Shown here in pieces: positions 21,043 through 54,830 of a stretch of DNA of 64,000 bases. The translations under genes and the position numbers were made by a program. The first letter of the stretch is position 1. Every line of letters begins with the position of its first letter. The notes beneath the pieces are model-generated. The model saw only the letters and a program-made list of their open reading frames with translations, did no database searches and was not told the origin of the DNA. Origin of the DNA: a virus; the IMG/VR virus record IMGVR_UViG_3300034072_001093, positions 1 through 64,000 of that record; one strand, written 5' to 3'.

Positions 21043-24000
21043 ATGACCAATCCGACCGATTTGATGAACCAGTACCTCGAAATTTACGGGGTACGCCCCC
21101 AAACGGTCAGAGGCATCAAACAATCACAGGTCGCTCGATCGTCTGCCCAGAAGCAGCAGGAACTCGCACAGATCAGCTCGCCTGAGGGCGCCTACGACGA
21201 GTTCGCTGGCGACATGGCGGACACCGGTGGAGCCAGTGCCAACGAGACCCAGCAGGATTTCCGCAACCTGTCGCCGGGTGAACTCGAAGCGAAGTACGGC
21301 AACCAGGCTGGCAGCATCATCTCAGCCCGCGTTGACGCTGGTGCTCGTTACCGGGCACCTCAGGTTATGCGTCGTTCGGCTGGGGAGATCGCCTCGGATC
21401 TGGGTCTGGCTGTGGCCAAGGGTGGTGCTGGTCTCCTCGGCCTCGGAGCTCTGGGCGTCAATCTGGGAGCCAAGGCCGTCGGTGCTGATGATGCGGCTGC
21501 AATCGGCCTTCGTGCTGCACAGTTCTCGCAGTCTGTGAATGACTTCCTCACCAGCAAGCAGACCGATGCTCTGCAGGGCGAGAAAGAGAACACCGAGGCA
21601 GAGATCCGTCAGGCCAAGCGTGACACCGACCAGCTCTACGAGCAGGAACGCCAATCCGGCGAAGGTGGAGCCAAGGTCAACCAGATCCTGCGTGAGTTCC
21701 GCGATGTCGGTGCTCGTGTTCTCGCCAATCCGACTGTCCTTGGTGATGCTGTCGCCGAGGGTGTCGGCTCGATGGCTGGTGCTGGTGTGCTGGCCCGAGG
21801 TGCTGCCAAGCTTGCTGGTGCTGTGTCCTCCCGTGTGGCTCCCGGTTTCCAGCTCTCCGAAAAGGCAGCTTCTCGTCTCGCCACTGCTAACATGGCAGCT
21901 TCGATCGGCGCACAGGAAGGCGGCAGTGCATTTCAGGGAACGACCCTGGAAGCATACGAAATCCTGAACGAGCGCTACCCCGACATGTCGGAAAAGCAGA
22001 AAGCTGAGCTGGCAACCCAGGCCGGTGAGTTGGCTGCTGCCACCCAGACTCCGATCGCAGCGGTGACCGGTCTGCTGGTGGCTCGATTTGAAATGAATCC
22101 GCTGAAGGCCCCTGCCCTTGCCTTCGGAACGAACACCGTCAAGGAGACAATTGAGGAAGGCGTTCAGGGAGCAACCGGAACCCTGGCTCAGAACTATGCA
22201 CTGGGCCAGGCTGTCGATCGTGATCGGGATCTGTTCGAAGGCGTCGGCGATGCTGCTGCCCGTGGAATGATCGCAGGTTTCGGCACCGGTGCTGTGGTCG
22301 GCTCTCCCAGCCTTGCAGCAGGAACCGCCGCTGGTGCAGCCAAGGCCGGTGTGAGCGCTGCTTCCACTGGAGCTATGGCGGTCGCCAGCAAGACCATGCG
22401 TGGTGTCAACGCAGCTGTCTCCAAGGTCGAAGGGACTTCGTTCTACCAGGCCATCAAAGAGCGTGCTCAGAAGATCATCGAGGAGGAAGAGAACGCCTCT
22501 CCATCTTCGGCTGAGAACACCAAGAGCATGCTCTCCGGTGCGATCGAGACTGTCCGTTCGATGGGCGAGCGGGTTGTGGAGACTCTGCGCTCTGAAGGTG
22601 CACCTGACCAGGCCGTCGACGATGTGATGGAACTGGCCAAGACCGCCTCGTTCGATATTGCCGAGATCGACGAGACTGCTCCTGAACTGGTTCGAACTGC
22701 TGTCGCAGGATCAACCAATCGCTTCGAAGCGATGGAGGCTCTGGCCCAGGTGGTAAACCAGGCAGAGGAAGGCAGTGCCGACCAGATCACGGCTGCCCGG
22801 TATCTCGCCGACATGAAGTCGCAGGTCGAAGGTCTGACCCAGCACAAGCCCATGGAAAGCCTGGACGAGATCACTCCAGAGAGTGAGATCGATACCACTG
22901 TCCGCGGTCTGGAAGCAGGTCTGGTCAACCTTCTCGATAACCCCGGCATCAAGCGTGCGTATGAGTTGGCAAAGACGGCTTTGGGTGCTGCTGTCGAAAA
23001 GGGTGCAGCGATCCTTCGTGCCAACGAAGATCCTACTACTCCCGAGAGCCAGGAGCGGATCAAGACTGCGCTGGCTGTTGCTGAGCATACCCCTGAAAAG
23101 TCGGACATCGAGACCAATGAGGTCCTGCTGAAGCATGCCGAGAATGGCACAATCCAGCTGACCCCGGTGCAGCAGGCTCAGCTGCTCTCTGCATCTGCAC
23201 TGGTTCAGGCGGAACGCCAGCTGCTCGCAGCCCAGGCAGAACAGGGCATCAAGACCAACGTCAACATGGTGACTGGTCAGGCTCTGACCGATATTCCCGA
23301 TGCGATCGGTGGTGTGCGGCTGCCGTCCCTTGCCGGCCATGCTCGCCGGATCATCCAGGCCTACAAGGCCGGGTCGATCGACGTGGCCAAGGCTCACCTT
23401 CAGGAGTTGATGCAGTTCGCCCAGCATTTCCAGAACAAGGTGGCTGCAGCCAATGCCCACTTTGCCCGTGGTGGTCAGGGCAGAGGAGATCGCTTCATGG
23501 CTCTGTCGAGCCAGTATGAACCCGATGGCAGCCGCAAGATGGTGGAATCGAGCAAGCCGTTCGACGTTCGGCCGTGGAACCCTGCTTCGGTCGGCCTGGC
23601 TCAAACTGTCGGTAAGGAAGCCGAGGTCATTGCCAGCGTGGCAAACCAGATCGCACAGGCATTCCCGGATCTGGGAATTGCCCCCGTGGTTCCGGTTGCT
23701 CTGGATCCTGGTCTGAGCGGTCCCGTCGCTGAGGTGGTTGCACGCAATCCTCGTGGTGCTGCTGCTTCTAATGTCCCCCAGACACCGACCAATGTCCAAC
23801 CCGTCCAGGCCCAGGCTCCTGTCGCCCAACAGCAGCAGCAGCAGGTCCAGCTTCAGGCTGATGTCGAACAGGCACGGGCCAAGGGCGCAGTCGCTGCTGC
23901 CAGCAAGAAGGACACTGCTCCTCCTGCCGAGTATTCCACCGAGCAGAAGGTGGCCTGGTACGAAGGCCGTGACGAAGCACGTCAGCTCGCTGCCCAGGAA

Positions 24001-27000
24001 GCAGCTGAGGCAGAGCTGGAAGCTCAGCCGGCTATCGAAGAAATCCCGGTGGTTGAGGAGCCAGTGACAGAAGCTGTCACCCCCGATCCTGAGACTGTCG
24101 TGGAAGAGGTCGTTGAACCCGAACCTGTGCAGGTCGAGGAATCGCCTCAGGAAGCCCAGGAGACCCCTGCTCCCGAGAGCCAACCCGTGGAGACCCAGGA
24201 AGCTGAAATCGTGCCTGACGAGGCTCCTGTGACCGCTGCTGAGGTCTCTGGCATCATTGCTGAAGCTCTGGATGCGAAGATCCCGGAAGCTGAGCCTGCG
24301 GTCGAACCTGCCGAGGTGGTCCCTGCCCCGTCGGTTGCCGAGCCTGCCGAGACGGTGAAGACCCGCTTCCCCAAGCTGGTCGGCCATGCTGCAGGATCGA
24401 AGATCACCAACTGGTTCTCGAGGGCATTCGGCCTGAAGAAGGCGGAAACGATCAAGCTGTGGAGCTATGAGGGCAACCCGATCCGATCGGTGCTCGACAT
24501 GCTCAACGGCAGCCTTGAGGATTATCTGGGCGACAACGCCCCTGAGGCGAACCTGACGCCCCAAGAGATCTCGATGTATGAGGCCTTCATCGAGAAGAAC
24601 GCCAGTGGCATCATCCGATCGCTGAATGGCCGGATCCAGAAGTTCCTCGATGCGCCTCACTCGCAGAAAGAAACCGCTCCCCGCAAGAGCTTCTGGCGGC
24701 AGGGCAAGAAGCCCTACAACGAATACGTGACGGGCCGCATCCTCAACCTGGTCGAGGAGAACGACGGTAAGTTCACTCTGAACCGTGAGCTTGTTGGCAT
24801 GGGTGTGCTGGCTGCTCTGCAGTGGATCCAGCAGACGAACAACTACGGCAAGCGCAAAGAGGGCCGTGACGTTCCCGGTCTGTTGGGCATGTCGAGCCAG
24901 GAAGCCAATTCCAGGCCCGAGCTCGATGGCACCAGGGAAGCGATTGCACGGGAGTTCAACCTCGGCATCACTCGTGTCGAGGCTTCCCGTTCACTGGCCC
25001 AGATGATCCGCAAATACTGGGGTCTGGACACCCGCAAGGATGCGCCGAAGGCTTATACTGACGGCATCGCCGAAGCGCTGGCCAAGGAGATCATCGATAC
25101 GATGGTCGATGGCGGTCTGCTGGTGCGTGAGTTCCCGCTCAACAAGGTGATCCCTAGCAGCAAGACTGCCAAGGAACGGACGGTAGAGATCTACTATCCG
25201 GCTGAGAATGTGCTGCCGGAGACGGGCATTCCCGATTTGATCGAGCGCATGGTCATGCGGAAGCCTGACACGGTGAACTTCGTCGGCACTCCGCCGAAGA
25301 ACATCGCACAGACCCAGGTCAACAACTCGAAGGCGAAGCTCACCAGGGAGCAGAAGGCCGCCATTCGTGCTCGTCAGGCTGTGCCCTTCTTCGTGAACAC
25401 CAGCATGCTGGAGTTCTATCGGAACGCAGGTGACCTGCTGAACACGCTGTTCGGTGGTGGTCGTATCGACGGTCTGCCGATCAATGCAGAGCATCGCCGG
25501 ACCTTGGAAGGGCGTAACCGGACAGTGCAGCTCGGCATGCAGCAGATCGAGAAGCTCGCCCGTGAAATGCAGGCATATGCCGAAGCCAAGGGCATTCCGA
25601 TCGAGGAAGTCCCGGCGCATTTCGAATACAGCTTCAACTCGATGAACCGTGAGCAGATGCTTGGTGGCACCACGCCGCAGAACAACAAGCTGATGCGTGA
25701 GGTCTTCCTGCCCACCACATCGACGAGCGATCTGTCGGACGTGTCGAGCAAGGCTTATCGGGGCTTCATGCTGGCCATGGCTCAGCACATCGGCATAAAG
25801 CTGGAGCGTCAGTCGAGCCAGGACAGCATCGACCAGGCCAAGAGTGATCTCGAGAGCAAGTATGCTCGCTCGATCGCAGGCCTGAAAGTCTGGCTGCAGA
25901 ACAAGGGACCGATCTCGGAAGAGCTGGTTCAGACACTGCAGAGCGAGCTGGGCGGAAAGCTCAACCCGGCTGCCGTGCATGCTCTGATGGAATATGCCCG
26001 GTTCGACGCAATGAGCCAGGAAGAACGCAAGAGCTTCAGCACCTCGCTGTATCTCGAAGCCGATGGTGTGACCAACGGCCCGATCAACGCTCTGATGCTG
26101 TTCAATCCTGGTTCGTTCACGGCAGACTGGATTGCCGATGTTCGTCGTGGTGGTGTGCTGTTCGACGGTGCAGCCTCGATGAACGAAGCCTATGGCAGCA
26201 ATGGGGGTGACCTCTATGCCCGAGCCAGCAAGAAGCTGACCCAGCTGCTGAAGAGCGTGCTGCCCGAGACGGAAGTCGAGCGCAAAGAGCTGGAAGGCCT
26301 GCTGGCGTTCATGGATCTCTTCATGGGCGATGACGTCACCTACACCCAATTCGAGGATGGCACATTCGAGGTGTCCTTCGATCGTGGTGTGACGAAGAAC
26401 CCGCTGACGATCACCCTCTATGGTTCAGGTGCCAACGGCATGGCCGACAAGCTGGCCACCGTGCTCGTGGATGCGATCCACGAGAAGATGACCGAGATGG
26501 CTCTGAGGGGCGATGCAAACCCCAACATCTCGGTGTCGGAAGCGCTGTTCCCCAACGATCCGAACCATGAGGTGAAGTTCGAGTATTTCGAGGGCCTGCT
26601 CAAGGACCTGACCGGTCTGAAGTTCAAGGACCCGATCAGCCTCTCGATCACGAGGGACGCCTATACCCGGCTCAAGAGCCGGATGGCGGAATACATCGTG
26701 CCTCAGCTGCAGGCTGCTATCACGGCAACCGTCGGCAAGACGGTGGTGGACACCCTGACCGATGTCCGGATGGCCACACAGGTGCAGTCGATCGCCCTTC
26801 AGTATGCGTTTGCTGCCGAAGTGAAGAAGCGTCTGGAAGCCAAGGGAGCAAAGAGCTCGGAGTTCCTGTCGCAGCAAGAGCTCGATGAGATCTTCGACTC
26901 CCTGGCTCATCTGGTTCCGATCCTCTCCACCGGGGAGCAGAACTTCTACATCGCCAACTCGCAGCGTGCTGATGAGGACAGCAATCCGTTCTCGCAGCTG

Positions 27001-30000
27001 CTGTCGGGCAAGATGTCGACGCCCGCCTTCCTGGAGAACCCGGCAAACGCTGGTGTCCGGGGCATGCCTTCGCTCGTCATCGGTTCGGGCGATGGCATGA
27101 TGATGCAGAACTTTGCTGGATCCAAGGCAGGTCCGGGCAAGACCCTGGGCGTGTTCGACGGTCTGAACATGCCGATCGACATGATCGAGGAATACAGCAA
27201 GCGGATCAACGCAGCTGTGGCCCAGGCCTGGCAGCGCAATCCCCTGCAGAGTGTGGCTGACACCTTCACGCAGTTCCTGCCGGCCTATTCTCTGAAGGGC
27301 AAGACCTACCAGGAAATCGGGGACATTCGCTATGCCCTGACTGGCGGCACAAACGCGAAGGAAACCCCCGTTGCCGAGCTGGAGCGTCTGCTCAAGGTCC
27401 TGAATGCTTCGCTTCAGCGGGGAGCCATGCAGATGGAAGCCCGCCAGAATGCTCTGGCCCAGGTGGACTTCCGTGTGGACCAGATGGCCGGTGCTGCATC
27501 GCCTCACGTTACCGGGGGCAAGATCTCGCTCGAAGGTATGAGCAACGAGCAGATCGAGCAGGTTCTCAACGATCTCTACAATCAGGAGCTGGCCAAGCTC
27601 GAAGAGCGGGCAGAGACCCTTGCCAAGGCCACCGTGCCTGAAGCCGTGATCGATCTTTCGACCGAGCATCCTTCGGGTGCCCGTGTGGTCCTGCCCCAGG
27701 CTCTGAAGTCGTTGGTCGAGAAGCTGAGCGGCACAGGCTGGCAGCTGAATGTTCTCGGCGATCAGGTCGCTTCGCTCATCGAGCAGGGCTACCAGATCGT
27801 GGCTGGATCGGATGCTCAGCTTCGTTCCTGGCTCAACCAGAATGGCATGAACCAGAGTGTGCTGGACAACCCCGGCGCCGAGACGGTCAATGGCGTCACC
27901 CTGCCCAACTCGAAGGTGATCCTGTTAGTCAACCCGACGGCCGAAACGATCGTCCACGAGATGATCCATGCTGCCACCTACAACACGCTGGCTGCCCATT
28001 ATGCTGGGCAGGATCTGGGTCCCCGTGCCGTGGAGAAGGTCCGTGCGATCGAGCGTCTCGAAGTACTGGCCAAGCAGTTCCTCTCGCTCGACCTGTCCCA
28101 GGCCAGCGAGCAGGTGCAGCGTGCCTATGTGAACGCACGCAATGCCATGAAGCAGGCCCTCGCCGAGGGCAACAAGGCTGCAGCTCTCAATGAGTTCATG
28201 GCCTGGGGTCTGGCGAACCAGGAGCTGGCAGAACAACTGGACAAGACCGAGGCGAATCCCCTGGTCCGAATGCTGCGTGACGTCATCGATGGCATCAAGC
28301 AGCTCATGTTCGGCAAGCGCCAGGTGCCGGTGCTGGGTGACATGCTCAGCAACCTGCGCTTCAACACGGCGATCCTCGCTGTGACCCAGAAGGATGCGTT
28401 CGATCTGTTCGACGAGACGGCACTCTACCACAGCGAAGCCTATGGAAAGTCGCCTCGCCTCAGCCGGATCAACGAGATCCTGCAGGACAAGGTGTTCAGC
28501 TACGTCCGTGGAATGATGGTCGACGAGGGTGAAGCTGCCCAGCAGAATGCACAGAACCAGGTGAGCAACCTTACTGTGCTGGCTGACCAGGCTCTGACTG
28601 GTGCCGTGGGTGCTGGCTTCTCGATGAACATGCAGGAGAAGAGCACCTTCCAGCTGGTAGTTAGCACCATGGCATCTGCCATCCAGCTCGACGGCAATGC
28701 GCTGTCGAAGGCTTCGGAGCTGTTCAACTATGTGACCAAGACGCTGAGCATCAGCGATTTCCTGGCCAATCCGAATGAGGAGAACACCACCGACAGCACG
28801 CTGGCCAACGAGAAATACAACTTCGTCCTGGGCAACTATGGGACGCAGTTCGACCAGCTCAACCGGTCTTCGCTGCTGCCTGTGTTCATGGGCCTGGCTC
28901 TGACCAACGAGGAGTTCCGCAAGGTCCTGGCCAAGATGCCTCTTCCCGCGGATGTCCGGAACACCGATGGCACTCTCGACAACCGGATCGAGAATGCCGG
29001 AAACAATGTGATGGACTGGCTCGGCCGCTACTTGTCGGGGCAGAAGCGCTCGGACAAGACGGTGGGTGCTGTCGTGGACAGCCTGACCGAGCAGGTGCTG
29101 AAGACCGCGGCAGAGCGCCAAAGCTTCATCTCTGTGGTGGCCGGCAAGGCTGGTGGAGTGGTCGATACCGTCAACGATTTCGTGGCGAGCTCGATCGAGT
29201 TCATGTCGGAGCGGGCATTCCTCGGTGGTCAGAAAATCGCCGAGAACGCCACCAACCGGTGGACCAAGGTCGCTGGTGAGGCCATCAGTGCCATGGGTGG
29301 CATCGCCAATCGGGACTATGCCAACAAGCTCGGGGAAAACTGGATCGAGAGCGTGTTTGCTGCTGACCTTCCCAAGCCGCTGACCGATCTGGTCAACGAC
29401 ATGATCGGCCGCACCGAGAGCAATGCCCCGATCTACGACATGATCAAGCGGGTTCGCAGCTGGGTGACCAAGAGCCGTCAGCATTACCGCGAGGATCTGC
29501 CGAAGATCATTGCCAAGCAGTTCTCGAGAGAGCTGAGCAAGCAGGAATGGGCCGATCTCCACAAGGGCATCGGTCAGACTGACGTGGCCGCTCTTCGTAT
29601 GCGGTTCACCATGGCCCAGATCCTGTCGATGCTGGCTGATCCTGGTGTCCTGGCTCAGGAGATGAGCCGCCTCGAAGCCGATCTGAAAGCTGCTCATCCT
29701 CAGGACTTCAACACGCTGCAGCGCAAGTCGGTGCAGCTGGCCGAGTTCATGAACACGGGCAAGCCTGGCACAAATCTGCTTCGTAATGCCTTGGCGATCG
29801 CAGCTCTGCTGGGTGAGAACCGGACGACGAAATATGCTCCGACGGCAACCACCGAGCAGATGGTCGATGCCCTGGTGTCGCTCTACGCCCTCCAGGGTCT
29901 GAACCAGGACACGAAGGACAGCCTGGCCAAGCTGGCTCAGGGCGAAGCCGACGGCCTGTCGTTCACCACGGAATACCTGGCAGCTCTGCGGAAGTTCGAG

Positions 30001-31788
30001 CTTCGCCGGGCAGTCGGGAACGCCAAGTTCAACCACTTCAAGGGGTATCTGCCGAACGCCAAGGATGGCGAGATGACGATCGTTGTCCGCAAGACCGACA
30101 ACTATGCCGATCTGCGTCAGCAGAGCTTCAAGATGATCGGGGTCTACCATGGTTCGAACCTCGATCGCCGATCGGGAACCTCGGCCTATTTCATGGTGCC
30201 GGTGTCGACCCGTGCCAACTATCAGCAGGGCATCATGCAGACTGTCCAGCAGACGGTTGGTGGTGTGGATCTGATGACGGGCCTGAGCCATGATCGATCG
30301 GCTGCAGGTGCCATTGCAGAGCCCAAGACTGTGGCTCGGATCTGGCGCAACCGGCACCAGGAAAATGCTGTGGAGCCCCTGATCCCGATGTTCGACAAGG
30401 ACGGCATGATCATGGGCTATGAGCGCAGCACCAATCCCGAGATCATGGGGCAGATGGGTCAGGAGAACCACCTGGCCAATGCGATGGGTCAATGGCGTGG
30501 GCGTCAGGTCGAAGAGCGTGAAGGTCGCTATGTGAACCAGACGCTGATCGAACGCATGCACCAGATGTGGGAGAAGGCCAGCGCAGAGCAGCAGAAGACC
30601 CAGTTCGTCAACCTGTTCGATCCCAAGGTTCGCAAGGACGATCCTGTGCTGGAAGACATCTTCCAGAGCCTGCCCGGCTATGTGATCCAGGACATCGTGA
30701 AGGTCTTCGGCGAGCAGTTCATGATCCGCAAGGATCTGCTCAATGACTCGATGGGCTATCGTGATGCCTCTATCCGGGATGCCTGGACCGGCAACAGCCG
30801 TCTGGACCCCAAGATCCTGGAGATGATCAAGAACACCACGATCTCGGTGTTCGGCATGGATGGGTATCGCAAGCTGGTGACGGCCGAGAAAACGATCCAG
30901 AACGTGATGACCGACCTTAGGGTGATCATCGTGGTCAAGTCGATGTTCGTGCCTGCTGCGAACCTGACCTGGAACATCTACCAGCTCATGTCCCGTGGTG
31001 TTCCCATTGGTTCGATCGGCAAGGGCATGCCCCGCAAGGTCTCGGAGGTGAACGATTACCTCAAGCGCAAGAGCCGGGAGATCGAGGCCGAAGCCGAGCT
31101 TAAGGCAGTGGGAACCAATGTCCGTGCAGCTCTCAAGCTGGAAGCGGAGATCCAGGCACTCAAGGACAGCTACAAGTTCCTGAGCATCTGGCCTCTGATC
31201 GATGCCGGCGAGCTTAGTTCGATCTCTGACGGCATGCTTTCGCAGGACGATCTGAAGCTTAGCGAGGGCCGCATCAGCGAATATATCGATCGACTGGCTG
31301 ACAAGCTGCCTGCTAGTGTGCGGACCATGGCCAAATACGGTCTGATTGCTCGGGACACGGCGCTGTTCAAGGGGCTGCAGAAGACGGTTGAATACGGGGA
31401 CTTCCTGGCCAAGGCGATCCTCTACGAGGATCTGGTGGGCAGGCAAAAGAAAACGCCCGAAGCAGCACTGGCCATGATCAACGAGGAATACGTCAATTAT
31501 GACCGGCTGCCCGGGCGTACCCGTGGTGCGGTGGAGCAACTCGGGTTGGCATGGTTCTGGAACTTCAAGATCCGATCGACCAAGACGGCTCTGTCGATCG
31601 TGAGGAACAATCCGGTCCACGCACTGATTGCGATGAACCTGCCTGCTCCTGGCTTCCTGGGTGACGTGGGAAGCCCGCTGACGGACAATATGGTGGCTGT
31701 GACGGGTGACGGCAGGGCTGGCTTCTCTATCGGCCTTGAGATGGCCCTGAGGGCGCCTCAGCTGCATCCGCTGGGCAGCGTGCTGTGA
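21043..31788 (+). CDS. Giant virion-packaged RNA polymerase (N4 gp50 type)
   Basis: Encodes 3581 residues (N4 gp50 is ~3500). Residues 1 to ~925 are a helical Ala/Gly-rich N-terminus, about 925 to 1100 a Gln then Glu/Pro/Val-rich linker, and about 1105 to 2110 the T7-type polymerase. Motifs: 'NSMNRE' (R1536, TxxGR position), motif A 'EADGVTNG' (D1674), motif B 'RGVTKNP...LYGSG' (R1781, K1785, Y1793), motif C 'GVFDGLNMP' (D2039). The D-to-K distance of 111 equals that in N4 (559 to 670). The remaining ~1500 residues include an HEMIH motif at 2305 to 2309. It would be injected and transcribe early genes. Confidence 0.95.
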   Translation: MTNPTDLMNQYLEIYGVRPQTVRGIKQSQVARSSAQKQQELAQISSPEGAYDEFAGDMADTGGASANETQQDFRNLSPGELEAKYGNQAGSIISARVDAGARYRAPQVMRRSAGEIASDLGLAVAKGGAGLLGLGALGVNLGAKAVGADDAAAIGLRAAQFSQSVNDFLTSKQTDALQGEKENTEAEIRQAKRDTDQLYEQERQSGEGGAKVNQILREFRDVGARVLANPTVLGDAVAEGVGSMAGAGVLARGAAKLAGAVSSRVAPGFQLSEKAASRLATANMAASIGAQEGGSAFQGTTLEAYEILNERYPDMSEKQKAELATQAGELAAATQTPIAAVTGLLVARFEMNPLKAPALAFGTNTVKETIEEGVQGATGTLAQNYALGQAVDRDRDLFEGVGDAAARGMIAGFGTGAVVGSPSLAAGTAAGAAKAGVSAASTGAMAVASKTMRGVNAAVSKVEGTSFYQAIKERAQKIIEEEENASPSSAENTKSMLSGAIETVRSMGERVVETLRSEGAPDQAVDDVMELAKTASFDIAEIDETAPELVRTAVAGSTNRFEAMEALAQVVNQAEEGSADQITAARYLADMKSQVEGLTQHKPMESLDEITPESEIDTTVRGLEAGLVNLLDNPGIKRAYELAKTALGAAVEKGAAILRANEDPTTPESQERIKTALAVAEHTPEKSDIETNEVLLKHAENGTIQLTPVQQAQLLSASALVQAERQLLAAQAEQGIKTNVNMVTGQALTDIPDAIGGVRLPSLAGHARRIIQAYKAGSIDVAKAHLQELMQFAQHFQNKVAAANAHFARGGQGRGDRFMALSSQYEPDGSRKMVESSKPFDVRPWNPASVGLAQTVGKEAEVIASVANQIAQAFPDLGIAPVVPVALDPGLSGPVAEVVARNPRGAAASNVPQTPTNVQPVQAQAPVAQQQQQQVQLQADVEQARAKGAVAAASKKDTAPPAEYSTEQKVAWYEGRDEARQLAAQEAAEAELEAQPAIEEIPVVEEPVTEAVTPDPETVVEEVVEPEPVQVEESPQEAQETPAPESQPVETQEAEIVPDEAPVTAAEVSGIIAEALDAKIPEAEPAVEPAEVVPAPSVAEPAETVKTRFPKLVGHAAGSKITNWFSRAFGLKKAETIKLWSYEGNPIRSVLDMLNGSLEDYLGDNAPEANLTPQEISMYEAFIEKNASGIIRSLNGRIQKFLDAPHSQKETAPRKSFWRQGKKPYNEYVTGRILNLVEENDGKFTLNRELVGMGVLAALQWIQQTNNYGKRKEGRDVPGLLGMSSQEANSRPELDGTREAIAREFNLGITRVEASRSLAQMIRKYWGLDTRKDAPKAYTDGIAEALAKEIIDTMVDGGLLVREFPLNKVIPSSKTAKERTVEIYYPAENVLPETGIPDLIERMVMRKPDTVNFVGTPPKNIAQTQVNNSKAKLTREQKAAIRARQAVPFFVNTSMLEFYRNAGDLLNTLFGGGRIDGLPINAEHRRTLEGRNRTVQLGMQQIEKLAREMQAYAEAKGIPIEEVPAHFEYSFNSMNREQMLGGTTPQNNKLMREVFLPTTSTSDLSDVSSKAYRGFMLAMAQHIGIKLERQSSQDSIDQAKSDLESKYARSIAGLKVWLQNKGPISEELVQTLQSELGGKLNPAAVHALMEYARFDAMSQEERKSFSTSLYLEADGVTNGPINALMLFNPGSFTADWIADVRRGGVLFDGAASMNEAYGSNGGDLYARASKKLTQLLKSVLPETEVERKELEGLLAFMDLFMGDDVTYTQFEDGTFEVSFDRGVTKNPLTITLYGSGANGMADKLATVLVDAIHEKMTEMALRGDANPNISVSEALFPNDPNHEVKFEYFEGLLKDLTGLKFKDPISLSITRDAYTRLKSRMAEYIVPQLQAAITATVGKTVVDTLTDVRMATQVQSIALQYAFAAEVKKRLEAKGAKSSEFLSQQELDEIFDSLAHLVPILSTGEQNFYIANSQRADEDSNPFSQLLSGKMSTPAFLENPANAGVRGMPSLVIGSGDGMMMQNFAGSKAGPGKTLGVFDGLNMPIDMIEEYSKRINAAVAQAWQRNPLQSVADTFTQFLPAYSLKGKTYQEIGDIRYALTGGTNAKETPVAELERLLKVLNASLQRGAMQMEARQNALAQVDFRVDQMAGAASPHVTGGKISLEGMSNEQIEQVLNDLYNQELAKLEERAETLAKATVPEAVIDLSTEHPSGARVVLPQALKSLVEKLSGTGWQLNVLGDQVASLIEQGYQIVAGSDAQLRSWLNQNGMNQSVLDNPGAETVNGVTLPNSKVILLVNPTAETIVHEMIHAATYNTLAAHYAGQDLGPRAVEKVRAIERLEVLAKQFLSLDLSQASEQVQRAYVNARNAMKQALAEGNKAAALNEFMAWGLANQELAEQLDKTEANPLVRMLRDVIDGIKQLMFGKRQVPVLGDMLSNLRFNTAILAVTQKDAFDLFDETALYHSEAYGKSPRLSRINEILQDKVFSYVRGMMVDEGEAAQQNAQNQVSNLTVLADQALTGAVGAGFSMNMQEKSTFQLVVSTMASAIQLDGNALSKASELFNYVTKTLSISDFLANPNEENTTDSTLANEKYNFVLGNYGTQFDQLNRSSLLPVFMGLALTNEEFRKVLAKMPLPADVRNTDGTLDNRIENAGNNVMDWLGRYLSGQKRSDKTVGAVVDSLTEQVLKTAAERQSFISVVAGKAGGVVDTVNDFVASSIEFMSERAFLGGQKIAENATNRWTKVAGEAISAMGGIANRDYANKLGENWIESVFAADLPKPLTDLVNDMIGRTESNAPIYDMIKRVRSWVTKSRQHYREDLPKIIAKQFSRELSKQEWADLHKGIGQTDVAALRMRFTMAQILSMLADPGVLAQEMSRLEADLKAAHPQDFNTLQRKSVQLAEFMNTGKPGTNLLRNALAIAALLGENRTTKYAPTATTEQMVDALVSLYALQGLNQDTKDSLAKLAQGEADGLSFTTEYLAALRKFELRRAVGNAKFNHFKGYLPNAKDGEMTIVVRKTDNYADLRQQSFKMIGVYHGSNLDRRSGTSAYFMVPVSTRANYQQGIMQTVQQTVGGVDLMTGLSHDRSAAGAIAEPKTVARIWRNRHQENAVEPLIPMFDKDGMIMGYERSTNPEIMGQMGQENHLANAMGQWRGRQVEEREGRYVNQTLIERMHQMWEKASAEQQKTQFVNLFDPKVRKDDPVLEDIFQSLPGYVIQDIVKVFGEQFMIRKDLLNDSMGYRDASIRDAWTGNSRLDPKILEMIKNTTISVFGMDGYRKLVTAEKTIQNVMTDLRVIIVVKSMFVPAANLTWNIYQLMSRGVPIGSIGKGMPRKVSEVNDYLKRKSREIEAEAELKAVGTNVRAALKLEAEIQALKDSYKFLSIWPLIDAGELSSISDGMLSQDDLKLSEGRISEYIDRLADKLPASVRTMAKYGLIARDTALFKGLQKTVEYGDFLAKAILYEDLVGRQKKTPEAALAMINEEYVNYDRLPGRTRGAVEQLGLAWFWNFKIRSTKTALSIVRNNPVHALIAMNLPAPGFLGDVGSPLTDNMVAVTGDGRAGFSIGLEMALRAPQLHPLGSVL

Positions 31789-48590: not shown

Positions 48591-48899
48591 TCAGTTCGGG
48601 CGTGCAGCCCGGTATGCGTCGTTGATGAGGCCAGCGATAAAACGCCGAACGTCTCCCCGAATGCCGATCTCGTCGGCAACCCAGTTCACCTGGTTCTCGG
48701 GCAGCTGCTCGAAGATCTCCTCCATGAATGATCTGCGAGTATCGTTCGGCTTGATGCCCATGCGGGTCAGCCGGTGAGAGACGCTGGTGTGGTGCATCCC
48801 CAGCTTCCGTGCGATGGAAGCCGCGGAGAACCCCAAAGCGTTCATCCGGAGAATCTCCTCCTTGGTGTCGTAGAATTGTTCTGTTTTAGAAGCTGGCAT
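48591..48899 (-). CDS. Small helix-turn-helix protein
   Basis: Encodes 102 residues. Residues 12 to 45 ('KEEILRMNALGFSAASIARKLGMHHTSVSHRLTRMG') form a resolvase-type helix-turn-helix. The C-terminal half is helical and may dimerise. It lies downstream of a 387-base noncoding region with inverted repeats that could hold its targets. Candidate regulator of middle or lysogeny genes; no repressor family is recognised. Confidence 0.65.
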   Translation of the reverse strand: MPASKTEQFYDTKEEILRMNALGFSAASIARKLGMHHTSVSHRLTRMGIKPNDTRRSFMEEIFEQLPENQVNWVADEIGIRGDVRRFIAGLINDAYRAARPN

Positions 48900-49286: not shown

Positions 49287-49745
49287 TCAAATCTCCAGGA
49301 GCTTCCGGTGCTGGATCAGGTAGGAAGTTGCTCTTTCGAGCAAAGCCAGATCGTCTTTGAAGAAGCCCAGGCCGCGGTTACAGGAGCTGCAAAGCATGCC
49401 CCTGAAAGTGTGGGTCTGGTGACAATGATCGATCGAAAGCTCTTTCCACCTACCATCTCCAGCAGCCCCACAAAGGTCACAAAGACCGTTATGGGCGAGA
49501 AGCTGCTGAATAAGCTCTGGGGTCGCTTTGACGCCGATCCGACGAAGACGGTATCTCAGGCGACCCTCCGGATTGCCGTGATACCTATCGGAGGATTGAG
49601 CGTTGAGCTTGTCCTTGTTGGCCTGGCGATAACTCCGCATATACGCCTGATGCTGAGCCAGCTTATCGGGATCCGCATTACGCTTTGCCCTCGCTCTGGC
49701 GCATGCTTCGAGCTTCTTAGCAGAAGTTTTGTTAACCCTGGTCAC
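49287..49745 (-). CDS. Endonuclease VII-type HNH nuclease
   Basis: Encodes 152 residues. GTG 49745 is preferred (GGAG at 8 bases); TTG 49751 is too close. The basic N-terminus is followed by the recombination endonuclease VII domain: 'CDLCG', 'LSIDHCHQTHTFRGMLC', 'CNRGLGFFKDD', with zinc-binding cysteines and the His metal site. It may cut branched DNA or be a free-standing homing nuclease. Its last nine residues (IQHRKLLEI) echo the ThyX end just upstream. Confidence 0.8.
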   Translation of the reverse strand: MTRVNKTSAKKLEACARARAKRNADPDKLAQHQAYMRSYRQANKDKLNAQSSDRYHGNPEGRLRYRLRRIGVKATPELIQQLLAHNGLCDLCGAAGDGRWKELSIDHCHQTHTFRGMLCSSCNRGLGFFKDDLALLERATSYLIQHRKLLEI

Positions 49746-49747
49746 GG

Positions 49748-50644
49748 TCAAATCTCCAGAGTTTTGCGAAACTGAATCCAGCCCGTGAAGTTCCCGTGGA
49801 GGTCAGATCTTGCCCATTCATAGGTTCCGTCTGGACGAGGGTCTAAAGCCTCATCAGGTGTTGCCTGATGCTCTGCAGGTGAGGCATGCAGGGGCTTGGA
49901 GCCAACGAGGCGATCGAACAGCTTCAGGTCTTCCTCGACGGTGGTCTGGCGGCCGTCATGGGTCAGGTAGCTGACACGAGCACAGCGAGCGGTGGAGACC
50001 TTCTTGAGGATGTCGTTTATCTGGCCAGGCATGGGAACGACACGCATGACGCCGTTCCCGGTAATCCGGTCCTGGGCTGCCTTGACGTCATCGCGGGTGA
50101 TGTAAGGCAGATGCCAGTCTTCCGGAGCCAGGTGCTGAGGATGGCTGCTGCACAGAGCGTTGAGCATTTCCAGAGCCAGGACCTTCATCTCAGGCTGGGC
50201 ATCGGGGTGAGCACGCAGCTCGAAGAAGTTCTCCCAGTCCGTCGCCGTGACGACGACGTTGATGTGTGCCCATGGTTCGAGGATGCGATTGGCAATCTGC
50301 TTGTGGAGACCGAGACGAACCATCTCTTCTGCAGCTCTGATGCAGCAATCGAGAGCATCGTGCCACTCTGCGTTGGCATATGCCAGGTCATCTGCGGTGA
50401 GTTCAGCTCCAGCCTGCATCCCAGGCTTATTGCTGCCCCAGAAGACAGGCATGGCAGGATCCCGGCGAAGATCTTCGATCATTCGTTCGACAGGGATAGC
50501 TCGACTGGAGCTTGCGTTCCGCGAAAAGACCCTGTGTGTCATAAACTCCGCATGGATGAACCTCGGGTAGCGTAGCTGCATGGTTGTGAGGCGGATTCCA
50601 GCAGGTGAGATGCTGTCCGCGATCACTTTGGCATAGATTGTCAT
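49748..50644 (-). CDS. thyX: Flavin-dependent thymidylate synthase
   Basis: Encodes 298 residues. ATG 50644 follows AAACCCAGAAAG. The ThyX signature appears as 'THRVFSRNASSSRAIP' (H37, R38, S41, R48), with 'NRILEPWAHINVVVTATDWENFFELR' for the FAD/dUMP site and C-terminal 'GNFTGWIQFRK'. It methylates dUMP to dTMP with FAD and folate. With the dCMP deaminase and dNMP kinase it supplies dTTP. An integrase cassette separates it from the deaminase. Confidence 0.93.
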   Translation of the reverse strand: MTIYAKVIADSISPAGIRLTTMQLRYPRFIHAEFMTHRVFSRNASSSRAIPVERMIEDLRRDPAMPVFWGSNKPGMQAGAELTADDLAYANAEWHDALDCCIRAAEEMVRLGLHKQIANRILEPWAHINVVVTATDWENFFELRAHPDAQPEMKVLALEMLNALCSSHPQHLAPEDWHLPYITRDDVKAAQDRITGNGVMRVVPMPGQINDILKKVSTARCARVSYLTHDGRQTTVEEDLKLFDRLVGSKPLHASPAEHQATPDEALDPRPDGTYEWARSDLHGNFTGWIQFRKTLEI

Positions 50645-50735
50645 GGGTCTGTGTCTTTCTGGGTTTGTGAAGTCCGAGACACTCTGGAGAGAGCCTCGGT
50701 TGGTCGACTTCAAGGGGGTCAGATGGTGCACTCAC

Positions 50736-50953
50736 GGTTTACAGTGTTAGGGTAAACCTGAGGAAAGCTGGGGGTTTGCTGGGGATATGGTTTACAAGAA
50801 AATCCTTATTTTTCAATGATACGCAAGGAATCATAATCCGTAGGTCGGGGGTTCAAGTCCCTCCTCCGCTACCAAAAAATCCCGGTAAAACAAAGGTTTA
50901 GAGGAGCGGCAAATTTCAGATGAAACCAAAGTTTACACGCCTTTGTAAACTTT
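50736..50953. repeat. GTTTAC/GTAAAC repeats flanking the att core (candidate arm sites)
   Basis: GGTTTACA at 50736, GGTAAACC at 50751 and GGTTTACA at 50789 lie on one side. GGTAAAAC at 50884 and an inverted pair AAAGTTTACA/TGTAAACTTT at 50928-50953 lie on the other. The pair overlaps the integrase stop and can form a 10-bp hairpin. Placement around the core resembles integrase arm-type sites. Confidence 0.5.
50827..50874 (+). other. attP core identical in form to the 3' half of a tRNA-Met gene
   Basis: The stretch runs from the anticodon stem (GGA-ATCATAA-TCC, CAT anticodon) through the T arm GGGGGTTCAAGTCCCTC to the acceptor CTCCGCTA and CCA. No 5' half is present, so it is not a tRNA gene. 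It abuts the integrase gene, the usual arrangement for integration into a tRNA 3' end. Confidence 0.75.
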
Positions 50954-51982
50954 TCCGCGCTGGGTCTTCTGGCCCATGCCGCGCATCTTTTGCGCCAAGT
51001 GCATGATGACCCGTGCGTTATCGACATATCTGAGCCGTACAGCGGACACTTTCTCCGAACTCCAACCAAGAATCTTGGCGATGTCATCGTCGTTGAGGCC
51101 GTTCTGCACCAGCTTAGTGGCGAAAGTGCCACGAAGGTCGTGAAGAACACGATCGAACCCTGGCGGAAACGATTTCCGGAGCATGCAAGACAGCCCTTGC
51201 TTGGTCCAAGCGAACCCGCGGCTGTTTTTCAGCACGGTTCCGGTCTGCTCTCTGCCCTTCAACCATGCCCTGAGTTCAGGGAGCATGGGGATGATGGCCT
51301 CTGTTCCTCGCTTCTCGGTGCGTTCGACCCAGACAAAATTCTGGTCGAGGTTCACATTACCCCACTCAAGCTTGACCAGATCTCCGAGACGGAGACCGGT
51401 GAGGCTGGCGAGAACGATGGCGTCCATGACGTGCGTCGGGATCTTGGCATTGTGAATGGCGTCCCAGTGACGCTCCTCCCAGATCTCGTCGGCCTTGTTG
51501 ACGCGGTGGAGCTTGGAGATGCCGTCGGCACAGTTGTGGTCGACCATGGCGTTCTCCCTGCCCCAGTTGAGCAGGGTGCTCATCATGACGACACCCTTGT
51601 CGGCCGAGCGGGGTTGGTCCCTCCACTGGTTCCGCCAGCCGTGGACCTTGCCTCGCATCTTGGCATCGTTGAAGAGCTCAAGGGGCATCTTCCCGAAGTG
51701 CTCGTCGATCCGGTTGAGCCAGAGACGGTAGTCCTTTTTGGTGGCCGGCTTCAGCCGACCAAACTCGGGGCTGTCCTGGTAGGCTGTAATGAGGGCACTC
51801 ATTCTGACGGTCTTCTCGTCTCGATCTTTGTTCATGGCCGCGAGCTGCTTGGCGAGCAGCTTTTGGGTGATAACGGGGGGGACGTGATCATCCGTCTGGA
51901 TGAGTGGTCCCCCCCGCCAGGCATACGAATAGTACCGATCGCCCCATCTGAGGCGTTTGCGGACAATGTGTATCCCTATCAC
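50933..51982 (-). CDS. int: Tyrosine recombinase (phage integrase)
   Basis: Encodes 349 residues. GTG 51982 has AGGA at 8 bases and follows the upstream gene by 4 bases; ATG 52012 has no ribosome site. A SAM-like core-binding domain (about 60 to 145) precedes the catalytic domain with R198 ('TGLRLGD'), K224, H281-x-x-R284 ('LHDLRGTFA'), W307 ('LGWSS', the H/W position) and Y319 ('RYVD'). All catalytic residues are present, so it should be active. The adjacent tRNA-like core is its likely site. Confidence 0.92.
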   Translation of the reverse strand: MIGIHIVRKRLRWGDRYYSYAWRGGPLIQTDDHVPPVITQKLLAKQLAAMNKDRDEKTVRMSALITAYQDSPEFGRLKPATKKDYRLWLNRIDEHFGKMPLELFNDAKMRGKVHGWRNQWRDQPRSADKGVVMMSTLLNWGRENAMVDHNCADGISKLHRVNKADEIWEERHWDAIHNAKIPTHVMDAIVLASLTGLRLGDLVKLEWGNVNLDQNFVWVERTEKRGTEAIIPMLPELRAWLKGREQTGTVLKNSRGFAWTKQGLSCMLRKSFPPGFDRVLHDLRGTFATKLVQNGLNDDDIAKILGWSSEKVSAVRLRYVDNARVIMHLAQKMRGMGQKTQRGKVYKGV

Positions 51983-51986
51983 GACC

Positions 51987-52196
51987 TTAGTCCTGCGCCG
52001 CGAAGTAGGCATCGAATCTGTCCCGTAGCGTGGTCTCCTTGGCTGCCGGGGGCAGCTGCGGAGATGGTAAGCATGAAACAGTGACTCCATCTTCCCGGAT
52101 GTCAACGGAGTTGGGCATGAAGCCGTATTCCCGCTTGAGCATGTCGAGGATGGATCGCACCTCGGTTAGAGGCACGGTACGCCGCTTTGTAGTCAC
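51987..52196 (-). CDS. Small protein coupled to integrase (candidate excisionase or regulator)
   Basis: Encodes 69 residues. GTG 52196 has GGAGG five bases upstream. The basic N-terminus (TTKRRTVPLTEVRSILDMLKREYG) could form a small helical or winged domain; the C-terminus 'ETTLRDRFDAYFAAQD' is helical. Its stop lies 4 bases from the integrase start, so the two are made together. Excisionase is a guess from size, charge and location. Confidence 0.55.
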   Translation of the reverse strand: MTTKRRTVPLTEVRSILDMLKREYGFMPNSVDIREDGVTVSCLPSPQLPPAAKETTLRDRFDAYFAAQD

Positions 52197-52269
52197 GAAT
52201 CCTCCCTTGGTCCCGTGAAGCTGAGCCTGACCTGCTCAGCCGCACAGAGATGATTCTGTTGATGGTCAT
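52102..52269 (-). CDS. Possible Arg-rich 55-residue protein overlapping the integrase leader gene
   Basis: ATG 52269 follows AAAAACCCAGACC and a GGCAC-UUCG-GUGCC hairpin. The frame runs 55 codons and overlaps the start of the next gene in another frame. The product has about ten Arg and few acidic residues. No Shine-Dalgarno is seen, so it may be a decayed leader rather than a gene. Confidence 0.3.
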   Translation of the reverse strand: MTINRIISVRLSRSGSASRDQGRIRDYKAAYRASNRGAIHPRHAQAGIRLHAQLR

Positions 52270-52310
52270 GGTTTGGCACCGAAGTGCCTGGTCTGGGTTT
52301 TTACGGTGCT
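52270..52310 (-). promoter_or_regulatory. Leader element with UUCG tetraloop hairpin
   Basis: On the minus strand AACCCAGACC is followed by GGCAC-TTCG-GTGCC (a very stable c(UUCG)g tetraloop) and then AAACCATG. It sits between the promoter at 52341 and the integrase operon. Confidence 0.5.
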
Positions 52311-52340
52311 CTGTAAGGGGGGGCGAGCACTGTGAGAGGG

Positions 52341-52369
52341 CATATCCCGGATGGTTTCCAACATGTCAA
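52341..52369 (-). promoter_or_regulatory. Sigma-70-type promoter for the integrase operon
   Basis: On the minus strand a perfect TTGACA (52369-52364), a 17-base spacer and GATATG (52346-52341, 3 of 6 matches). It is the clearest host-type promoter noticed in the window. The transcript would begin near 52333 and enter the 52269, 52196 and integrase starts. Confidence 0.5.
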
Positions 52370-52409
52370 CATAGCCTGAAAAGATAACATCGAGCCCCTT
52401 CGGGTAAAC

Positions 52410-52802
52410 TTAACATCGGTTGTTTTTGGGTAAGCCCTCCTGTCCGATATGCTGCTGCATGTTGCTGCAGGTTCGAGCTATGAGATGGCATTGGTAAACC
52501 AGAGGTAACGCATCCCAGACGTCTGATAACCAAATGAAAATGCGCTGTTTTACCGTGACATCTTCAAATTGGGTCTTATCTGGGAGTGAAATGCCCGAAG
52601 GTGTTTCCACAGGATTATTCGATCCATTTTGGTTGTTGTTTGCCGCCTGCAGGAGGTCATAAAACTCCTGCAGTGTGGCCTGGAGGCCACTCTTATCGAC
52701 CGGAATTTCGATCTTGTCGAAGTCCGGATTGATCTTGGCTGCGTCTGCCTGGGTGGTGAGGACGTGGATTCGCTGCCCATCGTTTGCGGTGTAGAAGATC
52801 AT
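52410..52802 (-). CDS. Hypothetical protein before the lysogeny cassette
   Basis: Encodes 130 residues. A short N-terminal beta region ('MIFYTANDGQRIHVLTT') and a helix are followed by an Asn-rich linker (NNNQNGSNN) and a helical end with three Cys. Base composition is more AT-rich than the neighbours at its 3' end, next to the integrase module, which suggests a recombination boundary. The start is coupled to the deaminase stop (ATGA). Confidence 0.55.
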   Translation of the reverse strand: MIFYTANDGQRIHVLTTQADAAKINPDFDKIEIPVDKSGLQATLQEFYDLLQAANNNQNGSNNPVETPSGISLPDKTQFEDVTVKQRIFIWLSDVWDALPLVYQCHLIARTCSNMQQHIGQEGLPKNNRC

Positions 52803-53389
52803 GCCTGGTTCCTCAGCTGGCGAGTTGCCTCGCGTCTGCGTTCGACATTGGCGTTGTTGGCCTCAAGGAGGCCTCGGACACGCCACTCGAGAAACTGGAT
52901 TCGATCCTTGAGCTTCTCTTGATTGGGCGGAGGTGAGCCAGGGAGAACCCTGACAGTCACCCCACCTTCGAACAGGATCTCGGCCGCCTGTCTCATGCTC
53001 TCTCCCCATCGGGGATCGTCATGGTCGAATGGATAGACCACCACGCAGCTGATCCCAGCCTGAACGATGTCGCCTGCACAGTTCGCACAAGGGAACCAGG
53101 GAATATACATGGTGCATCCCCTGGTGCTGGCTCCCATGCGTGCTGCATTGAGGATAGCATTCTCCTCGGCATGCTTGGTGAAGGCGTATTTGGTCGGCCT
53201 GGCGTGGCGCGATTCGATTGTGTCATCCACGCCCCTGGGGAAGCCGTTCCAGCCTGAGCTGACCTGCTCCTGGTCAGGGCCGACGATGACAGCACCAACC
53301 TGCCGGCCACGGTCCTTGGACCATTCGGCATAGTGCAGGGCGAGCGACATCCATCGCTCGTCCCACATGCGCTGCTTCGAGGCGATCAT
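52799..53389 (-). CDS. dCMP deaminase
   Basis: Encodes 196 residues. ATG 53389 has GGGGAGG upstream and overlaps the previous stop. Cytidine/deoxycytidylate deaminase zinc motifs: 'HAEENAI' (H73, E75) and 'PCANC' (C101, C104). It converts dCMP to dUMP, the substrate of the ThyX encoded downstream. The C-terminal ~45 residues are a charged helical extension not needed for catalysis. Confidence 0.88.
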   Translation of the reverse strand: MIASKQRMWDERWMSLALHYAEWSKDRGRQVGAVIVGPDQEQVSSGWNGFPRGVDDTIESRHARPTKYAFTKHAEENAILNAARMGASTRGCTMYIPWFPCANCAGDIVQAGISCVVVYPFDHDDPRWGESMRQAAEILFEGGVTVRVLPGSPPPNQEKLKDRIQFLEWRVRGLLEANNANVERRREATRQLRNQA

Positions 53390-53574
53390 GATGCCTCCCC
53401 GAAATACAGCTTCCGGCAGGTCTTGCAGGTGACTTTGCCGAAATTTTCCTGGGAGGCGAAATAGTAGCTGCCTTCCAGGGGCTGACCACAAAGGGTGGTT
53501 GTGGGGTTGACTCGGTTACGGTCGGCGATGTGGCGAGCCTTGCTGTCGTCGAGCAGGGTATCGATTGCGGGCAT
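53386..53574 (-). CDS. Small putative zinc-binding protein
   Basis: Encodes 62 residues with three cysteines (C29, then 'CKTC'), suggesting a zinc ribbon lacking or borrowing one ligand. It is coupled by ATGA to the deaminase and follows the VWA gene by two bases with AGGAG upstream. Possibly an adaptor or regulator; no family is recognised. Confidence 0.55.
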   Translation of the reverse strand: MPAIDTLLDDSKARHIADRNRVNPTTTLCGQPLEGSYYFASQENFGKVTCKTCRKLYFGEAS

Positions 53575-53576
53575 GG

Positions 53577-54830
53577 TCAGCTCCTGACGTAGATGAGCTT
53601 GCCGAAGGGCACGCTCTGTCCCTTCTGGGTGCAGGCCCAGATGATGGGAACATTGACGGGAAGCGGCTGCATCGGGGCGACATAGAGATCGCTGAAGATG
53701 ACGGCCGCGGTGGGCTTGTGCTCGACGATGTGAGCATGGACGCAGCGAAGGCAGGTGCCTCCCCTGCCCACGACCACGATCTTTTCGAAGCGATCGTCCT
53801 CGTAGAAGACGTCCTCCTTCTGGATCTGGGTGTCGAACTGGACCAGGGTGAGCTTCTTCGGGTTGAACTGTTCCTTGATGAATTTCACCTCGGAGTTGAA
53901 CCGGAGAACCTCCTGGTCGGTGATCGAGCCGGACACATCGAGGTAGTAGATGAGGTGCTCAAGGCGACCTTCGTCCTCGAATCGGGACGGCAGATACATG
54001 TCGTCATGGGCGAATCGGCGGTTGGGCCTGCGCCAGGTGAAGTCCTCATCGACCAGATCGGTGAAGAAGGCCTTGAGCTCCGCTTCCCAGGGGATGATCG
54101 GAGCCAGGAATTTCTCGACAATCTGCTCGATGTTGCCCGGCAAAGTGCCAGGCTTCTGCCCGGCAAGCTTAGCCTGGTGAATGGCTCGGACCACGTTGTT
54201 GACGGCCGCTGTGGCTGTCTCCTTGGACATGGGGATCATGTCGCCGAGCTGATCGGTATCATTGGGGTTGGGCTGCCCTGCTGCTCCCTGGTTCCCGACA
54301 TCGCCGCCTGAACCATTGGGTGTGCAGGGTCCAGGCCCCCAGCTGGGCTTGGGCGGTTTCTGGTATTGCTGGATGAGGATGTCGTAGATGTCTTCCTCGG
54401 CCTGCAGTCCGTATTGCTGGTCCTTCCAGCAGTTTTCGACGCTGGTGAATTTGAATCCGTCCTGTTCGAGGCCGTTGTTGATCCGGAGATCGCAGGCGAA
54501 GTTCCAGATCAGGGGATCCCGGCTTTCACGCCGAACCTGGTGCAGCAGGGCTGCATGCCAGAGTTCGTGCATGAGGACGGTCTCCCGACCATCAGGGTGG
54601 ATTTCCATGAACCAGTCGGGGTTCCACCAGAAGGTGACGCCGTCGGTTGCTGCCGTGGGAATATCCCGGCTCCAGATGAAGTCCATGGACGACATGATGG
54701 AGCCAAGGAAGGCAGCGTTCTGGCCCAGGAAGACCTTGGTCTTGGTCCGATCGAGCTCACGGGTGATCGTGAACTCGTCGTAACCTAGCTCCTGCACCTG
54801 CTTGGGTGCAGCGGGGTGTTGGTTGCTCAT
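53577..54830 (-). CDS. VWA-domain metallopeptidase-like protein (DUF2201 type)
   Basis: Encodes 417 residues. The N-terminal zincin-like domain has 'HELWH' (H88, E89, H92). A Gly/Pro/Asn-rich linker at about 160 to 195 follows, then a VWA domain with 'YYLDVSGSI' (MIDAS DxSxS, D298, S300, S302) and 'IFSDLYVAP'. Such proteins act with a MoxR ATPase, encoded immediately upstream, in chaperone or metal-insertion-like assemblies. N4-like phages keep this pair; the substrate is unknown. Confidence 0.8.
   Translation of the reverse strand: MSNQHPAAPKQVQELGYDEFTITRELDRTKTKVFLGQNAAFLGSIMSSMDFIWSRDIPTAATDGVTFWWNPDWFMEIHPDGRETVLMHELWHAALLHQVRRESRDPLIWNFACDLRINNGLEQDGFKFTSVENCWKDQQYGLQAEEDIYDILIQQYQKPPKPSWGPGPCTPNGSGGDVGNQGAAGQPNPNDTDQLGDMIPMSKETATAAVNNVVRAIHQAKLAGQKPGTLPGNIEQIVEKFLAPIIPWEAELKAFFTDLVDEDFTWRRPNRRFAHDDMYLPSRFEDEGRLEHLIYYLDVSGSITDQEVLRFNSEVKFIKEQFNPKKLTLVQFDTQIQKEDVFYEDDRFEKIVVVGRGGTCLRCVHAHIVEHKPTAAVIFSDLYVAPMQPLPVNVPIIWACTQKGQSVPFGKLIYVRS

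Follow-up and report, generated by a model that had tools for sequence, protein, structure and literature searches.

In textbooks the N4-like phages are strictly lytic, and phage therapy and biocontrol are among the uses considered for them. What, then, is a tyrosine integrase doing in the genome of one of them, next to a stretch that reads as half a tRNA gene, and could such a phage insert itself into a bacterial chromosome? The DNA analysed here, called the window, is 64,000 nucleotides long and covers positions 1-64000 of the 75,061-bp IMG/VR record IMGVR_UViG_3300034072_001093. Because the two ends of the record share an exact 127-bp repeat, we take the genome to be closed at 74,934 bp. 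That the phage is N4-like, as the initial annotation had proposed, is confirmed by the marker protein of the group:

21043-31788, plus strand: N4-type virion RNA polymerase (vRNAP), the phage-family marker, 3,581 aa, recognised by four N4 vRNAP Pfam domains

These domains are PF21894, PF21769, PF21867 and PF21624; the families of the N4-type DNA polymerase, the major head protein and rIIA/rIIB are present as well (PHROG matches). The DNA polymerase is 59 to 62% identical to those of N4, the Achromobacter JWAlpha group and Sinorhizobium ort11, the closest annotated phages, and gene order agrees with that of other N4-like records.

The integrase itself leaves little doubt as to its class:

50933-52012, minus strand: tyrosine integrase, 359 aa (PF00589, 1.3e-16; phrog_1 integrase, 1.7e-33)

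It had been described as complete, and this holds: the ORF is intact and contains all six named catalytic residues, R208, K234, H291, R294, W317 and Y329 in the 359-aa numbering. The start first assigned to it, GTG 51982, gives a 349-aa form that is probably too short; ATG 52012 is the most likely start, because homologues, once aligned, open with a matching 'M..GRRR' segment. Among 16 related integrases (15 relatives and the phage's own), the R, K, H, R and Y residues are invariant, while the W position is occupied by W or H. Close relatives were found only through the core-pattern search described below and through an alignment-based search, a single-sequence search of viral contigs having given no matches. 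In an AlphaFold model built on the alignment of the relatives (mean pLDDT 84), three domains can be told apart: an N-terminal one with a three-stranded sheet at residues 15-42, a core-binding one made of helices, and the catalytic one. The closest solved proteins, by sequence profile and by fold, are the lambda Int structures. The protein is thus best described as a putative heterobivalent tyrosine integrase of the lambda type.

Such an enzyme needs an attachment site, and the candidate lies just downstream, with 58 bp between the integrase stop and its core:

50827-50874, plus strand: attP core, 48 bp that match a tRNA-Met(CAT) over its 3' part (anticodon stem through CCA), assigned from exact genomic matches
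50830-50836, plus strand: anticodon loop (ATCATAA), a 7-bp stretch predicted to be the crossover (overlap) region, assigned from the tRNA fold and the start of identity

The 48 bp recur in full and without a mismatch in 12 contigs of genomes, where they invariably form the 3' end of a tRNA-Met(CAT) gene that is itself intact; a match of this length cannot be due to chance. The earlier reading of this segment as the 3' half of a CAT-anticodon tRNA was therefore correct, and the core does recur in bacterial tRNA genes, in Blastomonas and Sphingorhabdus (Sphingomonadaceae): the 12 contigs belong to Blastomonas (including Sphingomonas ursincola), Sphingorhabdus, a Sphingomonas, two Rickettsiales bins and one uncultured bacterium. 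Phage and tRNA agree from the third base ahead of the anticodon loop to CCA; on the 5' side the identity stops abruptly, inside the anticodon stem, and the loop is flanked by GGA and TCC. Crossover in the anticodon loop is a known class of tRNA integration (PMC8371274), and the limits of the core identity fit what would be expected of this class. In a search of 399 Sphingomonadaceae genomes that did not require the first 3 bases and allowed at most one mismatch, the core variant was present in 10, all ten matches being exact and single-copy. From the rarity of this exact variant among Sphingomonadaceae, we infer that the host is probably Blastomonas or a close sphingomonad. None of the 10 core-bearing genomes contained a second core copy of the kind that an attR remnant would represent.

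A lambda-type enzyme would also be expected to bind arm sites on either side of the core, and a repeat search around it revealed a single motif and its complement:

50737-50743, plus strand: P-side arm-type repeat GTTTACA
50752-50757, plus strand: P-side arm-type repeat GTAAAC
50790-50796, plus strand: P-side arm-type repeat GTTTACA
50931-50950, no strand assigned: P'-side paired arm site GTTTACA-N6-TGTAAAC, which overlaps the end of the integrase gene and is the sole such palindrome in the genome

Of 21 genome-wide occurrences of the hexamer GTTTAC/GTAAAC, 5 fall within 214 bp around the core, where 0.06 would be expected (Poisson, about 6e-9 for one stretch and about 2e-6 corrected for position). 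The palindrome is present once in our phage and once in each of four records of unrelated phages with related integrases (G854, G855, L317 and L318); in every case the side of the same tRNA-Met core on which it is found is that of CCA. Its conservation is not a by-product of coding, since integrase and palindrome are on opposite sides of the core in G855 and L317. Repeats of the GTTTACA type on both sides of the core, together with a separate N-terminal domain in the enzyme, make up a lambda-type layout, and we consider the repeats and the palindrome candidate arm-type integrase sites with the expected properties. Their sequence is presumably unrelated to that of the lambda arm sites.

A second addition to the initial annotation, after the arm repeats, is a small gene coupled to the integrase:

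51987-52196, minus strand: 69-aa ORF, candidate recombination accessory protein, with homologues beside related integrases

It shares 26 bp with the start of the integrase gene, and homologues were found in the same position, overlapping or abutting the integrase start, in 16 of the 16 related integrase loci examined (62 to 82 aa, 14 to 53% identical to the phage's ORF). Neither this ORF nor one of its relatives matched a PHROGs or NCBIfam family, and the ORF had no Pfam match. Its model, a helix-strand-strand-helix with a pLDDT of 72, gave no meaningful match in a fold search. The family, which has no name, adjoins related integrases in many alphaproteobacterial phages. Our guess is that the protein acts as a directionality (excision) factor, or else couples the expression of the integrase.

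How general is this arrangement? A search with the core pattern, in which the integrase was not used, returned 69 viral contigs (L104-L172). Most of them have no integrase detectably similar to the phage's in the stretch examined, and six carry clearly related ones. Five of these six integrases follow CCA at a distance of 40 to 69 bp and are oriented like the phage's own, and the sixth is on the other side. In L109, L152, L161 and L170 an intact tRNA stands beside the integrase, as expected of an attL junction. The 3' half of tRNA-Met(CAT) is thus a common predicted attachment core among viral contigs. Conversely, a search with the protein only yielded 11 related integrases, 44 to 51% identical. 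A tRNA-Met core was found near the integrase in four of them (L317, L318, L319 and L324), a different tRNA-like segment lies near that of L322, no tRNA core is present within the stretch examined of L315, and for five of the 11 the record ends at the integrase. As judged from these loci, the pairing of integrase and tRNA-Met is apparently independent of phage type, and the module seems to pass from one phage family to another, unrelated one.

The position of the cassette in the genome has to be considered next, its neighbours being two genes of nucleotide metabolism:

49748-50646, minus strand: ThyX thymidylate synthase, left neighbour of the cassette, ATG start 50646 (PF02511)
52799-53491, minus strand: dCMP deaminase, right neighbour of the cassette (PF00383)

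The initial annotation saw the cassette as inserted between two genes that one would expect side by side. Both do flank it, but we rejected the idea that they are normal neighbours: the slot from ThyX to the homologue of 53577-54830 is variable in relatives, and among 12 N4-like relatives compared, only G003 and G022 have dCMP deaminase homologues. Since the ThyX-side slot holds different genes in relatives, a disrupted gene pair need not be invoked. By this comparison, the cassette nevertheless clearly appears as an insertion relative to most relatives. The slot (window 50732-53500) is hypervariable among N4-like relatives, where dCTP-deaminase-like, large tail-fibre-like and HTH genes are found, and an endonuclease VII gene (PF02945, window 49287-49751) adjoins ThyX.

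We conclude, with a probability of about 0.82, that this N4-like phage carries a complete, horizontally acquired integration module, composed, by sequence comparison, of the integrase, the coupled small ORF and an attP in which P arms, tRNA-Met core and P' arms follow each other. The identity of the attP core with the 3' part of the host tRNA is a layout that would restore the tRNA on integration, and a scenario can be proposed. After infection, the linear genome would circularise; the N-terminal domain of the integrase would bind the GTTTACA arm sites, while the core-binding and catalytic domains would bind the anticodon stem-loop of attP and that of the host tRNA-Met gene. Strand exchange across the 7-bp anticodon loop would then insert the 75-kb genome. 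The 5' part of the host tRNA would be kept and the identical 3' part would come from the phage, leaving tRNA-Met intact at attL, beside the integrase, and a 48-bp remnant marking the other end, attR.

A more trivial origin of the 48 bp has to be weighed against integration. Phages acquire tRNA pieces, and the segment could be a captured fragment that has nothing to do with integration. However, the same 3' part, broken at or just before the anticodon stem, recurs in several unrelated phages, 40 to 69 bp from an integrase related to this one, the conserved arm palindrome adjoins it, and no complete tRNA is present in the 64-kb window. This comparative att architecture largely refutes capture, which we regard as very improbable. 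A second possibility is a cassette that arrived recently as a passenger, either satellite-like or a decayed remnant, and that no longer functions in an N4-like background. In its favour, an integrase is present in no more than 3 of the 65 related N4-like records, none of them closely similar at this slot, and the different positions of the cassettes suggest repeated independent gain. On the other hand, the integrase reading frame is intact and carries the invariant catalytic residues; the arm sites, the core and the small coupled ORF, which decay would be expected to lose together, are all preserved; and GC content is the same in the cassette and the genome (0.581 versus 0.583). We therefore find a passenger improbable, if somewhat less so than a captured fragment. 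The comparative evidence for a working attP is strong, and the predicted capability of the phage to integrate is well supported.

Whether integration leads to stable lysogeny is another matter. The proposal of a temperate or integrating lineage stands for its second term, given the tRNA core, the arms and the intact integrase; its first term is no more than a possibility, as neither an integrated copy nor a typical repressor was found in the genomes and ORFs scanned. The initial annotation had proposed looking for prophages of this type at that tRNA. A search for the N4 vRNAP, which detects known N4-like records (positive control), gave no score above the threshold in species genomes of Sphingomonadales (399) or Alphaproteobacteria (385), an incomplete sample with one genome per species. 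Among the ORFs scanned, none encodes a convincing CI-type repressor, many phage ORFs being without a family match. The only repressor-like candidate seen is a 102-aa ORF (48591-48899, minus strand) with a weak HTH_3 match (48774-48848, E = 0.014).

These results, with the single core copy per host genome and the different tRNA near the integrase of L322, count against the integration module as we propose it. They also make a serious rival of a scenario in which the module integrates the phage transiently, within an essentially lytic cycle and without lysogeny. Such a scenario would account for the lack of a recognisable CI-like repressor and for the absence of a prophage in about 780 genomes, and the phage was indeed recovered as a closed, non-integrated genome with an intact attP. 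There is also a direct precedent, in T7-like cyanophages, for which integration was shown experimentally but stable lysogens did not form (PMC8776855). Against it, repressors are diverse and could be hidden among the ORFs without a family match, N4-like proviruses have been reported (PMC10654107), and the related N4-like G003 has HTH_3 genes and a host flank. All considered, we hold transient integration to be possible, without favouring it. An integration module present in the phage is our preferred reading, and we would extend it, as a tentative proposal doubtful in its full form, to a sphingomonad N4-like lineage that may integrate its 75 kb at a tRNA-Met anticodon-loop attP, whether transiently and with no repressor, or with a repressor that escaped recognition, aided by an unnamed family of integrase-coupled directionality or accessory proteins of about 69 aa from alphaproteobacterial phages.

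Is this phage alone among its relatives? The initial annotation suggested looking for integrase homologues at the same locus in Schitoviridae, and took degenerate integrases in all relatives, with no integrated copies, as a sign against its reading. In the 65 related N4-like records, no closely similar homologue occupies the slot, but intact tyrosine integrases are encoded by three of them, G003, G022 and G836, so that the integrases of relatives are not all degenerate. They differ from the phage's (the best, that of G022, is 26% identical), and in G003 and G022 the gene is at another genome position than here. Because the integrases are dissimilar and differently placed, N4-like phages have probably gained integrases repeatedly and independently, as far as these records allow us to judge.

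The G003 contig (IMGVR_UViG_3300037589_000163, L086 1-3000) opens with host DNA, a symporter gene and a tRNA-Ser(GCT) directly beside the integrase, and continues into the phage genome. This contig looks like an integrated provirus, a chimeric contig being possible. It is the 5' end of the tRNA-Ser, and unusually not the 3' end, that faces the phage. A search for the empty site by means of the flanking symporter gene did not find it, the best match having 44% identity and no tRNA nearby. The G022 record (IMGVR_UViG_2706794523_000001; L084, L088 and L089), which bears an isolate-type identifier and has no near match in the phage collection, begins with an ATG, and its last codon is the stop of the integrase gene; we suspect a provirus in the genome of a bacterial isolate, cut at gene boundaries. 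As for G836 (L307 13424-14530), it encodes a different tyrosine integrase of about 370 aa, with no tRNA within the stretch examined.

With a defined attachment site and a host target, the general report of integrases in N4-like phages becomes directly testable in Blastomonas, where the junctions are predicted. In addition, the arm palindrome and the coupled small ORF provide a handle on a widespread integration module of alphaproteobacterial phages.

Several known systems can be set beside this one. Like lambda integrase (PDB 1z1b, 1z1g, 5j0n), the enzyme appears to be a three-domain tyrosine recombinase with an arm-binding N-terminal domain; identity to the lambda protein is about 15 to 17%, and the predicted target, unlike that of lambda integrase, is a tRNA anticodon stem-loop. 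Among the closest known systems are also the integrases of alphaproteobacterial phages in IMG/VR (L109/G854, L110/G855, L314-L318, L320 and L323), 44 to 52% identical and likewise accompanied by the coupled small ORF, mostly with the tRNA-Met core and the arm palindrome where the att region is covered. The phages that carry this set are not N4-like in the stretches examined, and no vRNAP domain was found in G854 or G855. The T7-like cyanophages (PMC8776855) likewise combine an otherwise lytic podovirus lineage with an integrase and an attachment site, but belong to another phage family and infect another host. A further parallel lies within the Schitoviridae. The view of N4-like phages as strictly lytic was already revised by a 2023 study (mSystems 2023, PMC10654107), which reported hallmark genes of lysogeny (integrase, transposase or DGR) in 54 such genomes, as well as 40 proviruses, for the most part from Moraxella. 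These integrase-encoding viruses and proviruses share with our phage an N4-like genome with an integrase. The main text of that study mentions no attachment site, no target tRNA and no sphingomonads; for the phage studied here, in contrast, the sequence resolves attP with its arm sites, a candidate attB and the coupled ORF. N4-like integrases having thus already been reported there, this phage is an unusually well-resolved further case.
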